Shown one piece after another: positions 50,458 through 55,222 of a DNA stretch of 64,000 bases. The notes under the pieces are model-generated. The model was given only the letters and a program-made list of their open reading frames with translations, was not told the origin of the DNA and did no database searches. The position numbers and the translations under genes were made by a program. The first letter of the stretch is position 1; each line of letters opens with the position of its first letter. Source of the stretch: Panaeolus papilionaceus (taxonomy: Eukaryota; Basidiomycota; Agaricomycetes; Agaricales); NCBI GenBank assembly GCA_015501605.1, contig JADNRZ010000008.1, positions 372,001 to 436,000 of the forward strand, read 5' to 3'.

Positions 50458-50792
50458 ACTTGACATCAAGAATTGAAAGCCCATGACGTATAGTGTTAAC
50501 CTCTGTATCGATATCACGCATCCCCGACTCACGACAACCATTATCTTATTCATTCAGGGACTATCTATATCTCAGACTGTATAATTAACGTATTCTAAAG
50601 CCAAACAGGTTGAATAAAAGACAAAGAGGACATAAAGGTCGTAAGGTCGTAAATGTTGTCGAAGACACCGATCCATCTAGAACATCCTACACAGGTGCCT
50701 TAATCGCCTTCCTAGACAATGGGTCGAATGGGGCCAGCTTCCACATCCTATGAAACTCTCAGTTTTACCATCGGTCAAGCGGAACCTATAAC
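50458..50792. other. Convergent intergenic region
   Basis: This lies between the 3' ends of ISA2 and the hemerythrin-like gene. No gene is seen. Confidence 0.55.
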
Positions 50793-51961
50793 TCACTCGG
50801 CGTGAGCATTCACAAGCTTGGGCAGTTCCTTCTGTATGGCCTCAGGATTCGCAGTGGGCCAGTGGGAAGAAGTTTTAATGTCGTGATGGGACATGCAGTA
50901 TCTGGAAGAGCGTATTCAATGCAAATGGCAAACTAACCGACACATTTGGACTTACGGTAGTACCATGTTCATGTCCACCTTCGTCACGATCCAAGCTAAG
51001 TTTTCTGCGAAAAGGGTCAAAGCAATGAACGCTCGTTTAGCTACAACACAAACCTCCAATCAACTCGAACACCTTGTCATCAGAGACACCCTTAGGAAGA
51101 GATTCGGGTTTGAATTTCGTGCTTTGCTTGTGTAAAGCCTCATTGATGTCCTTGTCCATGCCTACGAGGGCATCGATCAAGCGAGTCGACAGATAGGCCT
51201 TGAGATCCTGTGTAGATGCCAAACCAGTAAGTTATGATGTCAGTTGTTGCGCCTATGCTAAATGTTGTACCTTTTTCCACCCTTCTGCCATGCTGCGAAT
51301 AGCTTTCAAAGCCACCTGAACAGTCCCTCCACTTTTGTTTACAGAATACGGCGCCTTGGTTTCCTGAGCGAGCCGCTTCAAGAAGAATTCGTCCCCTAAT
51401 TTGTCGCGGAAAGCAGGGCGAAGTCAGTGTACGCAGGGCTGACTGGATCGTTGCTGGTCACCTTCGATGTGGTTGTCTAGTAACATGCAAACAACTCCCA
51501 CGTAATCTGCGAATTGGCGACATTCTCTGGAGCCGGGCTTCACCCTAGATGCGAGTTCATGAACGCGATTTAAACCGCGAATTAACGCGTTCTATTGGAT
51601 CAACGTCAGATGTGTGGGGTCCTGTGTTGTAAGGGCCCATTGCGCACCTTCATAAACGTGTTTTGGAACTGCAGTGCCTGGGATGCTCTGACATGTATCG
51701 TCAATACCAATGTTATATGCAGAACAAATCACCTACTTCATACTCTCGAAGCTGTTTGGGATGGTTGGTAGCAGTGAAAGTGGGAAAGGCATTATGTTGT
51801 CGGAGGAGTGCACTAGCAAAAAGTCGTCACTGTATGTGGTAGGAAGTGTTGTGGCTCAAGTTCTATTGACATGTCACCTATTATAGCTGCTCTATCCCTG
51901 ATCACGCGTTTCGTGCCACTCTTCTTAATAGCGACGGGCCAAGCTTCAAAGACCGACGCAT
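50793..51961 (-). CDS. Hemerythrin-like (HHE) domain protein, possibly mitochondrial
   Basis: About eight exons. The start at 51961 gives MRRSLKLGPSLLRRVARNAA, a basic amphipathic N-terminus that suggests mitochondrial import. A 93-nt intron (51905-51813) joins it in phase to ALLRQHNAFPTFTATNHP. The helical core has NALIRGLNRVHELASRV, a usual HHE-family first helix, then FADYVGVVCMLLDNHIEGDE, then DLKAYLSTRLIDALVGMDKD. The last exon ends in KLVNAHAE. HHE domains bind di-iron or oxygen species through histidine and glutamate ligands; here fewer histidines are visible than in classical hemerythrins, so metal binding is uncertain. Confidence 0.7.
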
Positions 51962-52168: not shown

Positions 52169-53102
52169 TCAGTGGAAGCCTGTAAAGTCAATGTCGTGAT
52201 CCAACCGCCGTTCTAGTCCCCATTCACGTATCTTGTCCCAGTCACGGCAGGTGTGTATAACGTTCCCCATTATGCGCACTTGCTGAACGCGTTCAACCCA
52301 TTGCCACACCAATGGAGTAACGTCTGCCGAACACATGAGGGTCTGTCTGATGTTCTCGACGCAGTGACTGAGATGGACTACATGGAGATGGGGCTCATTG
52401 GTGTAGTATTCACGATAAAGAGACTTCCGAAGTAAATTCTAGTCCCTCTACGGTTAGCCCCGCTGGACATATTTAGAAACGTTTTGTGCTTACTGACCAA
52501 GCAATGAAGTTGATGGAAAACATCCAGTTGAACAACATAGTGGTCCTCGTCTCCGGGGATCCTGTAAGTCGAATTCTCGAGGCGCATTGCTTCAGCTTTG
52601 GTGAGTCTTGATGTACCAACTAGGGAGAAATTTCCCATCAGTATGGCTTGAGCATTCGAGCAGAAATTGATTACATTGATATAAGTCGTCCCAGGCTTGG
52701 TCGACCTCGACAGACGGCGCCTGCTGGTACATGGTAACATCCTTTCCAAACCCTTCATGGAACACAACTGTTTTATATTCGATGAGGTGGTCCACAGGTG
52801 CTGTTACGGGATAGTCAGTCGAACAGTAAGCCGAGGGAGGCACTGCGATACTCACAATAAAACCTCTGTGGAAAGATTGGGTTCTTTGCCCCCCGGTGTG
52901 TATACAGTGCAACTCTAGTGCCCAACAAGACAACGTTAAGGACGGCCTGGATACTGGCAATGAGCACGAGAGCTCGCCACGCTCGAGGATTGACCCGACT
53001 CTGCGGCTGGTCCAATTCTTCAGCAGAACTCGTCCCTTCGAGGAGCGATAGGTCCTCGAGTGAATCCTGGGGCATAAACGTGTATAGGGTTTCAGATTTC
53101 AT
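52169..53102 (-). CDS. UstYa-like protein (DUF3328), oxidative peptide-cyclising family
   Basis: About five exons. A polar cytosolic N-tail (MKSETLYTFMPQDSLEDLS) leads to one helix (RALVLIASIQAVLNVVLLGT), giving a type II membrane protein. The catalytic DUF3328 part has both HxxHC motifs: VFHQLHCL and, after an intron, HLSHCVENIRQ. Between them lie RLTKAEAMRLENSTYR and a GDEDHYVVQLD segment. The C-terminus has a CRDWDKIREW segment as in UstYa proteins. Family members in ascomycetes oxidise and cyclise peptide side chains in ustiloxin-type RiPP pathways. The secreted repeat peptide gene at 54095 is its closest plausible partner. An ATATATGTATAG element lies about 40 bp upstream. Confidence 0.85.
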
Positions 53103-53536
53103 GGTAGTTGCTGAACTCGAGCGGGGTCAACCGCGGACCTATACATATATTCTCCTCAACCCGCGAAGGATGCTCTGTCAGCTAAGTCGATTCTTGATTG
53201 AACACGAAAGCTAAGTGCTAACTCCTTCGATTAAGGTGCAACTCTAACCCAAAATGCACTGCACAGAAGTCGAATGCAGGAACGATTGACCGACGATGGC
53301 GATGAATCTGGCGGTGTTAGCACATAAGTAATGAAAGCATACGATGGCGATTCGAGGGACTGCGTCTAACTGACAATGAAGTGTGCGCTTGTGTCTAATC
53401 TCGTACTAAAATGGTACGTGGTGAGATACAGTCGTTCGAACTTAAACGGCGATCTGCTGCATTTACCTCTACGGGGAGAAGGCCTATCGCCGAGAGAACT
53501 AATGACAATAGACCTCCTGGTAGGATTCGAGACGTA
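53103..53536. other. Intergenic region inside the peptide locus
   Basis: This holds the UstYa-like promoter. No gene is seen. Confidence 0.5.
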
Positions 53537-53900
53537 TTAATGCCATGCAGACAGGAATCTGACTAAAGGTTGATGTACCTGAGCTTCGGCGTCGAGAGTT
53601 GGTGGGCCATCGAGCATTTTCAAGCTAACGGCGAGGCCCATCTTGTCGATTTCGATCAGTTGACTGAAAGGTAAGTGTAATTTCTTTTCCCTTTCCAACA
53701 CGAGGTGTCTTTTCTGGACCAAATCAGAAAGATAGAACGTCCTCGAGGGAAGCTGCCCTGGATCTAGACTGGGGGAAGGAGCGGGGTATGTGGCGGTTCA
53801 CTTCTTCGCCCGACAAAGTATTCGCGATGTCGCCCTACAAAGGCGCTTTAGGTACATTGATGGAGACGATGTCTCTCTCGGGCGGCTGACTCTGTTGCAT
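53537..53900 (-). CDS. Small hypothetical protein between the oxidase and precursor genes
   Basis: An ATG at 53900 opens MQQSQPPERDIVSINVPKAP. A GTAGGG donor at 53838 and a CCCCAG acceptor (exon 2 from 53768) then join it in phase to LDPGQLPSRTFYLSDLVQKR and further to QLIEIDKMGLAVSLKMLDG, ending at 53537 for about 97 residues. A further intron just after DAEAQ would instead give a stop within a few codons. No family recognised. It is charged and probably soluble. It lies between the oxidase and the repeat precursor, so it could be part of that locus, but nothing beyond position supports that. Confidence 0.4.
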
Positions 53901-54014
53901 GAAATCGAATAGGGACAAACAGCTAACAGCTAACTCATAATTTGTCTCACCTCCTGTAATCAACTTAGGTATATTTTGATTCGTTCGAATGAATAAATGA
54001 CTTTGGTGGCTATG

Positions 54015-54022
54015 TATATAAG
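54015..54022 (+). promoter_or_regulatory. TATA box of the repeat-peptide gene
   Basis: TATATAAG lies 73 bp before the precursor ATG. The leader between them is short and pyrimidine-rich, as in strongly induced fungal genes. Confidence 0.6.
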
Positions 54023-54094
54023 ACGGGAAAAACAGCCCTCAACTCACTCAGCCATTTTACAACTGCTATCCAACATTTACCAACGTTTATCAAG

Positions 54095-55222
54095 ATGAAG
54101 TATCTCACTATCTGCGTTGCTATTGCCATGTCATTCGCGAATATCGTCAAGGCTGCCCCGGCGCCTGCTGATATCAACGCCGTAAGTTATCACTTGGTTC
54201 GAACAAAACTTACTTACAGATATCTGTACATCCCACAGAGGGAGTCCACTGTGAGTGATTTCTATTTATTTTATTAATGACTCCCTTTATTGAACCAGTC
54301 GAAGGCCGATGTCCCCCCACAGGCTTGGAGTGGTTATAGAGTACGAAATACTCTTCAATGAGCCACTGTCGTTTCACTGACCCGGGCGCATAGAGAGAAT
54401 CCACTGCAGACGAAGCAGTTCCTCCTGAAGCTTGGAGTGGCTACAAAGTACGAGACGATGCTGATTGGGTTTAGCTTTCCGTATTAACGATATGTTTCAA
54501 CAGAGACAGTCCACGGTAAACGACCCACCCGAAGCCTGGAGCAACTATAAGGCAAGCAGATGTGAACGTTTTGAACATTTGTCAGAGACCAACAAACGTC
54601 GTAGAGGGAATCAACTGCAGACGAGGCTGTTCCTCCTGAGGCCTGGAGCGAATATAGGGTGAGTGCCGAAGGAATTTGAATCCATCTCCGTACTATCTGA
54701 TTTAAAATGTCGCGACGTATGTTATAGAGAGACTCGACCGCCGACAATGCTGTCGCACCTGAGGCTTGGAGTAACTACAGGGTATGCACGAGTTTCCTAG
54801 TTAATTCGAAGGTGGCCGCATAGCTGATACGCAATATGTGTCCATTAGCGGGAACTTTCCACCGCCGATAACGCAGTGACCCCACATGCTTGGAGTGGAT
54901 ACGAACAGAAGGTGGGTCCACAACTGTGGCCGAAATCCTACCAAACCGTAATTTCAGTGTCTATTAACACTGTTTTGCTCAGAGGGAATCTACCGCCGAC
55001 AATGCCGTCACCCCTCACGCTTGGAGTGGCTACGAGGAGAAGGTGCGTGACTAATTCATCAAATGAATGATTTAGCGCTCAGCGCCCATTCATCAATAAT
55101 CACAGATAGAGTCGACTGCTGATAATGCCGTTACCCCTCACGCATGGAGTGGCTACGGACAAAAGGCAAGGGTGTCTATTTTGTGCTCACATCGAACTTG
55201 GCCTCATGACCTTGAACAGTGA
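54095..55222 (+). CDS. Secreted repeat peptide precursor, putative kexin-processed RiPP
   Basis: Eleven exons, 178 residues. Exon 1 (54095-54181) encodes a signal peptide (MKYLTICVAIAMSFANIVKA) and a short APAPAD spacer. Eight units follow, ending in AWS-G/N/E-Y plus a basic residue; all introns are phase 0. Unit exons: 54239-54250 with 54299-54340, 54394-54447, 54504-54551, 54605-54658, 54728-54781, 54849-54911, 54983-55042, 55106-55165. Exon joins produce RR or KR, consistent with Kex2 cleavage; the last join is K-I and should not be cut. Introns after 54551 and 55165 start with GC, and the latter is followed directly by TGA (55220-55222). The neighbouring UstYa-like gene suggests oxidative cyclisation through the Trp or Tyr. 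Not a CaaX pheromone. Confidence 0.75.
54239..55165 (+). repeat. Eight tandem coding repeats, one exon per unit
   Basis: The unit consensus is R-E-S-T-A-D-x-A-V-x-P-x-A-W-S-x-Y-K/R, 16-21 residues long. Units 2 and 4 are nearly identical (PPEAWS). Units 6 to 8 share TPHAWSGY with two extra residues before the terminal lysine. Unit 1 is split by a 48-nt intron after its first four codons, and unit 3 is two residues shorter. Each unit with its flanking intron spans about 110 bp, so this is a tandem exon duplication. Sequence similarity falls off in the introns. Confidence 0.85.

Follow-up and report, generated by a model that had tools for sequence, protein, structure and literature searches.

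Organization of the Locus

Three genes lie side by side in the window, the whole 64-kb stretch of Panaeolus papilionaceus DNA that was analyzed (C70:372001-436000, in a genome of 50.85 Mb and 71 contigs that was used for comparison). A UstYa/DUF3328 gene and a repeat-bearing precursor gene stand head to head, and a hemerythrin-like gene adjoins the former. Positions are those of the window.

50687-51792, minus strand: hemerythrin-like gene adjoining the UstYa gene; spliced model of eight exons, 239 aa
52169-53102, minus strand: UstYa/DUF3328 gene; spliced model 53102-52856, 52800-52675, 52619-52498, 52438-52169; 254 aa
53103-54094, no strand: intergenic region between divergent, head-to-head start codons; 992 bp
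54095-55165, plus strand: precursor gene; ten exons, signal-like N-terminus, eight P-x-A-W-S-x-Y repeats
54239-54340, plus strand: repeat 1, split between exons 54239-54250 (12 nt) and 54299-54340 (42 nt); REST|SKADVPPQAWSGYR
54394-55165, plus strand: repeats 2-8, one phase-0 exon each, 48-63 nt
54394-54447, 54504-54551, 54605-54658, 54728-54781, plus strand: exons of repeats 2-5
54849-54911, 54983-55042, 55106-55165, plus strand: exons of repeats 6-8

One mark of a dikaritin locus is a DUF3328 gene close to a repeat precursor, and here 992 bp separate the two start codons. Judged from the gene arrangement, this interval is a possible shared promoter region.

The UstYa/DUF3328 Protein

The spliced 254-aa protein matches the Pfam UstYa family (PF11807) with an E-value of 5.1e-54 and 183.9 bits (cut-off 25) over profile positions 7-219 of 220. 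Its HxxHC(x)nHxxHC copper motif is complete, as HQLHC and HLSHC, which confirms the sequence-only reading of a DUF3328 protein carrying both motifs. The closest of 120 homologs, P. cyanescens CVT24_004090 (P0001), matches at 81% over the whole length and thereby supports the four-exon splicing model. Two exact HxxHC motifs are present in 45 of the 49 rows of an alignment made of the window protein and 48 homologs selected from the 120.

One membrane helix is predicted for the window protein. The predicted structure of the homolog P0001 (pLDDT 79.3) contains a single long helix at residues 36-73, with the HxxHC motifs on helices 161-175 and 189-206; this model had no match in the PDB at E <= 0.001. 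Leptin chains, the sole PDB sequence matches to the UstYa protein (E 0.56-0.68), were taken as chance. The window’s own UstYa protein is absent among the 120 database homologs. Neither it (52169-53102) nor the precursor (54095-55165) surfaced in protein database searches, though the protein of the third gene is deposited; database gene models for the two may be missing or different.

The Precursor and Its Repeats

The precursor begins with a signal-like N-terminus, MKYLTICVAIAMSFANIVKAAPAPADINA, which by eye is hydrophobic and has an AxA-like site, and a typical repeat reads RESTADEAVPPEAWSGYK. A translated-repeat scan recovered a chain of eight on the plus strand; elsewhere in the 64 kb, chains of at least four occur only as its mirror on the opposite strand, and the longest plus-strand chain in 20 local shuffles of the window was two. 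The eight repeats first described thus stand, while their placement at kexin sites holds for most of them: the spliced junctions between repeats are dibasic in six of seven cases (K-R or R-R), the last, between repeats 7 and 8, is K-I, and repeat 1 is carried on two exons. The boundary preceding repeat 1 is A-R.

Codon comparison finds Pro, Ala, Trp, Ser, and Tyr identical in all eight repeats, so that the AWS-x-Y core, with Trp and Tyr three residues apart, is confirmed as originally read. These invariant residues are written with several codons (three each for Pro and Ala, two each for Ser and Tyr), and the variable positions hold Glu, Gln, or His before Ala and Gly, Asn, or Glu before Tyr. 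Over 28 repeat pairs, pN is 0 and pS is 0.82 for the five core codons, and pN/pS is 0.49 for five neighboring columns. Local alignment scores exceed the 95% level of shuffled sequences for 23 of 28 repeat (exon) pairs versus none of 21 pairs among the seven inter-repeat introns. These scores were used because gaps are cheap in a gapped identity comparison, which was uninformative and did not separate exons or introns from shuffles. The P-x-A-W-S-x-Y core is under selection by its codon pattern, and chain length, core codons, and intron divergence mark the repeats as real. This is how an ancient gene of tandem exons, maintained by selection on its peptide, would look.

Seven of the eight repeats occupy a single phase-0 exon per core. 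Each of the seven inter-repeat introns splits a processing site, with the basic residue before it and the first residue of the next repeat after it. The dibasic sites arise by splicing alone because every inter-core intron separates the two codons. Skipping of whole exons would preserve the reading frame. One precursor intron has a GC donor, at 54552. The stop codon, TGA at 55220-55222, is where the locus ended as first described, and it does not depend on the fate of the 54 nt before it. These may form a final GC-AG intron (55166-55219); as this optional intron would end immediately before the stop, two in-frame C-termini of the precursor are possible.

The sequence-only reading had proposed a search for DUF3328 and for related repeat precursors. 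The former returned the PF11807 match, and for the latter none of 1509 candidates in the protein database reached E <= 10. The UstYa-precursor pair therefore lacks confirmation from a second species, a point counted against a dikaritin reading.

The Hemerythrin-like Neighbor and Surrounding Genes

The spliced protein of the third gene and Panaeolus papilionaceus BJ165DRAFT_1097620 share 100% identity. This protein has only three database members, and a UstYa gene is adjacent in all three cases; the third gene thus appears to be part of the locus, and the earlier description of a minimal, two-gene system becomes doubtful. Based on fold, a genome match, and comparison by eye, the protein is apparently hemerythrin-like, with a seemingly degenerate metal site from which iron ligands appear to be missing. 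The diiron ligands of hemerythrins sit on four helices. In comparison by eye with two PF01814-positive open frames on contig C2, the third protein lacks the histidines expected on helices A and C, and for that reason a normal diiron hemerythrin was dropped as its identity. H73, D77, E78, and H143 are retained in all three members. Pfam gave the protein no match, PF01814 included, a PF01814 search of the genome listed none on C70, and a PDB sequence search returned nothing below E 0.32. Three clustered PF01814 matches at C2:1860331-1864079 are possibly distant relatives of the third gene. No signal sequence is visible in the protein by eye, an argument against its acting in the lumen.

A scan of eight flanking open frames placed three in families above cut-off, namely a G-patch protein, a Ras-family GTPase, and a mitochondrial carrier; one at 61.0 kb has a Zn2Cys6 match below cut-off, and four have no family. 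The window had been described as lacking P450 and methyltransferase genes. For P450s this agrees with the genome search, in which none of the 112 matches listed falls in the window (92 of 311 candidates scored) and the nearest of them, at C70:365545, is ~6 kb before its left end; for methyltransferases it holds at the eight flanking frames, where none was named. Tyrosinase has no match in the window (25 genome matches; 23 of 23 candidates scored). Kexin-type P domains occur at two genome loci.

Other UstYa Genes and Precursors in the Genome

A PF11807 search of the genome gave 13 matches, read as 11 genes: one on C70, four on C2, three on C12, two on C50, and one on C27. The matched stretch has two exact HxxHC motifs in six of the ten genes outside the window and not in the other four. 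The translated-repeat scan, which covered 10-36 kb per contig around these genes, found just two precursors for the 11 genes, a scarcity that was counted against a dikaritin reading.

The second precursor runs on the plus strand from C12:363037 to at least 363846, ~6 kb from the nearest of the C12 UstYa matches (356955, 371772, and 382611). Its start is signal-like, and its repeats, for example NDDSGRVDTTFLRR, are carried on six exons of 36-51 nt, four of them exactly 42 nt. Its introns are of symmetric phase 1 and lie directly after the basic site. The cores are of RVDTTFL type, mostly without Tyr or Trp, and were likewise counted against a dikaritin reading. A further precursor, a relative of Coprinopsis KEP 497993 (best E 2.9e-4), lies at C7:126840-127433; its ~10 near-identical repeats share one 233-aa open frame, with a single Arg between repeats, and the PF11807 search listed none on that contig. 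Both precursors near UstYa genes therefore have one exon per core and the one other precursor does not, a tiny sample. A genome search for AADW-type KEPs was empty, a result that is uninformative as a negative.

Four UstYa matches are grouped within ~6.4 kb at C2:705021-711392, and a 19-kb scan there yielded no repeat precursor. The low-complexity repeats LVYEP and LIDQ, near these four C2 genes, were rejected as a precursor, since the sequence that holds them shows neither a signal sequence nor basic spacers. Near the UstYa genes of C12, C50, and C2 there are also recurring hydrophobic open frames, for example YYTMTICFNIVVTGLICGRL, that resemble one another by eye; Pfam assigned no family to the three on C12.

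L013:7024-7401, L014:2271-2657, L015:6718-7407, L012:960-1628, L009:4048-4437: hydrophobic open frames near UstYa genes

Comparison with Known Systems

Umemura 2020 (PMC7329392) counted 7878 KEPs across fungi and found that DUF3328 genes peak beside KEP genes, with Tyr in the repeat of 65.6% of the KEPs so placed. DUF3328, quoted elsewhere as the class-defining enzyme of dikaritin RiPPs (PMC12048977), was among the 15 closest genes for 103 of 1680 basidiomycete KEPs (PMC7329392). The pairing in the window, first taken as one that defines ascomycete pathways, is adjacent, as described, and head to head; it also occurs in basidiomycetes, where it is already published, as counts. KEP type P-3, which occurs in Galerina, Psilocybe, Coprinellus, and two genera of ascomycetes, combines Trp with Pro and has DUF3328 in four of seven cases; the text sets it apart from Tyr-containing types (PMC7329392). 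The KEPs of that survey came from annotated proteins, unlike the window precursor, which was not found among database proteins. Because the cores lie on micro-exons and the precursor is absent from database proteins, surveys of annotated proteomes could miss such genes, and the published count of basidiomycete KEP-DUF3328 pairs could be too low.

A search of the literature, mostly of open-access texts, found no report of a P-x-A-W-S-x-Y core, of cores each on an exon of its own, or of a UstYa partner resembling hemerythrin; passages of PMC9769878, PMC7329392, and PMC6339444 yielded one remark on exons or introns, on cDNA cloning. The core, the exon layout, and the third partner gene look new.

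Among the closest known systems is the asperipin-2a pathway of Aspergillus flavus (AprA/AprY), which shares a kexin-processed repeat precursor, a single UstYa homolog, and a small cluster of four genes (PMC6514808). AprY is essential there, so one such homolog can suffice for macrocyclization (PMC6514808). The asperipin-2a core is FYYTGY rather than P-x-A-W-S-x-Y, the host is an ascomycete, and the cluster holds a transporter and an isoflavone reductase where the window holds a hemerythrin-like protein. Ustiloxin and phomopsin precursors (UstA, PhomA) share the signal sequence, here a signal-like N-terminus, the UstYa enzyme, and a core at the repeat end before a basic site, and UstA has acidic residues before the core (ED and KR flanks) as in the window repeats. 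Those pathways differ in their YAIG cores, Tyr-Ile link, and use of a tyrosinase, which has no match in the window; the first description likewise called the core unlike those of ustiloxin and phomopsin. Known members carry a link from Tyr, or in victorin from Phe, to a second side chain (PMC9233826).

Two further systems bear on the chemistry. CctR, a DUF3328 hydroxylase of cyclochlorotine, is a homodimer associated with membranes; its HxxHC(x)nHxxHC motif holds a binuclear copper site, and the enzyme depends on O2 and electrons. The authors propose a lumenal catalytic part and postulate an accessory protein for electrons or Cu(I) (PMC12435403). The window protein is alike in its motif and predicted membrane helix, with a lumenal domain proposed, whereas the substrate of CctR is a non-ribosomal peptide (PMC12435403). 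A copper-dependent DUF3328 macrocyclase is the subject of a 2025 JACS paper cited in PMC12186524. Plant arabipeptins (ArbA2 with the BURP-domain cyclase ArbB2) share a multicore precursor, a copper enzyme, and a Pro shortly before the core, and their Tyr5-Leu2 link in FLWGY has the Trp/Tyr spacing of AWSxY (PMC12186524). They belong to another enzyme family and kingdom and use Leu where Trp is found here; no homology is claimed.

Proposed Function and Mechanism

The gene group probably makes a family of short modified peptides from one repeated precursor. On the gene content, the window more likely than not holds a dikaritin-like RiPP locus of a basidiomycete, with UstYa oxidizing the Trp/Tyr core of the adjoining precursor. 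This reading is supported by the head-to-head genes, the intact UstYa copper motifs, the selection on P-x-A-W-S-x-Y, the kexin-type P domains, and the C12 precursor, which likewise lies near UstYa genes; the published DUF3328-KEP adjacency, CctR, and AprY also favor it. We infer the action on the adjoining precursor. Presuming that the genes are expressed and spliced in vivo as modelled, the precursor would enter the secretory pathway via its signal sequence, and UstYa would be anchored by its one membrane helix with the catalytic part lumenal. As a binuclear copper oxidase, it would act on P-x-A-W-S-x-Y before or during kexin cleavage. The most plausible product would have the side chain of Tyr bonded to a residue close by in the same molecule. 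Trp is the first guess, as it stands at i-3 of Tyr and the Tyr5-Leu2 link made by ArbB2 has the same spacing. Cleavage by kexin behind the dibasic sites and removal of the basic ends by a carboxypeptidase would release variants of 14-19 residues, ESTADEAVPPEAWSGY among them, although repeats 7 and 8 may remain joined. The order of these steps, like the chemistry and any role of the hemerythrin-like partner, is proposed here.

UstYa may instead modify the core otherwise than by a Tyr-Trp ring, through hydroxylation, dehydrogenation, or a Tyr link to Ala, Ser, or Pro, which has a substantial chance somewhat short of even. Nothing specific argues against such a modification, except that Trp and Tyr are, of the invariant core residues, the two most readily oxidized. 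DUF3328 proteins have been implicated in halogenation, hydroxylation, macrocyclization, and isomerization (PMC12435403), a range that favors it. In an alternative that appears unlikely, the repeats would belong to a plain secreted protein whose peptides remain linear, like the -AADW ones of oyster and shiitake mushrooms, and the neighboring UstYa would serve another substrate. Vogt et al. report that the KEP peptides detected in agarics, the only basidiomycete ones detected in the literature consulted, are linear or minimally modified (PMC9769878), a point counted against the dikaritin reading, and 94% of basidiomycete KEPs have no DUF3328 neighbor by the count of 103 in 1680 (PMC7329392). However, the UstYa and precursor genes are immediately head to head, Trp and Tyr are conserved at a fixed spacing, and the UstYa protein is intact with all copper ligands present.

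A decaying precursor pseudogene beside a live UstYa gene is very improbable. The GC donor at 54552, the K-I that replaces K-R before repeat 8, and the absence of the precursor from database proteins would fit decay, but all ten modelled exons are in frame and free of stops, the core has pN 0 at pS 0.82, and the exons are conserved while the introns diverged. A bolder form of the dikaritin-like reading combines three proposals: that the DUF3328 enzyme links Trp and Tyr of AWSxY, convergent with the BURP arabipeptins; that the precursor is an exon cassette, with one core per symmetric exon and processing sites completed by splicing, in which skipped exons would alter the set of peptides while the frame is kept; and that the hemerythrin-derived protein, without a full iron site, is a dedicated accessory. 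Taken together these are unlikely. Should the hemerythrin-like partner turn out to be required, it would become a candidate for the accessory factor that the authors of CctR postulate (PMC12435403).

Predicted Peptides

With its compact layout and selected Trp/Tyr core, this mushroom locus lends itself to direct testing through mass spectrometry and Aspergillus oryzae expression. The [M+H]+ values of the predicted peptides, computed from the sequence for linear and -2H forms, are as follows.

ESTSKADVPPQAWSGY: 1722.797 linear, 1720.781 -2H
ESTADEAVPPEAWSGY: 1708.734 linear, 1706.718 -2H
QSTVNDPPEAWSNY: 1607.697 linear, 1605.682 -2H; also as pyroglutamate
ESTADEAVPPEAWSEY: 1780.755 linear, 1778.739 -2H
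DSTADNAVAPEAWSNY: 1710.724 linear, 1708.709 -2H
ELSTADNAVTPHAWSGYEQ: 2075.931 linear, 2073.915 -2H
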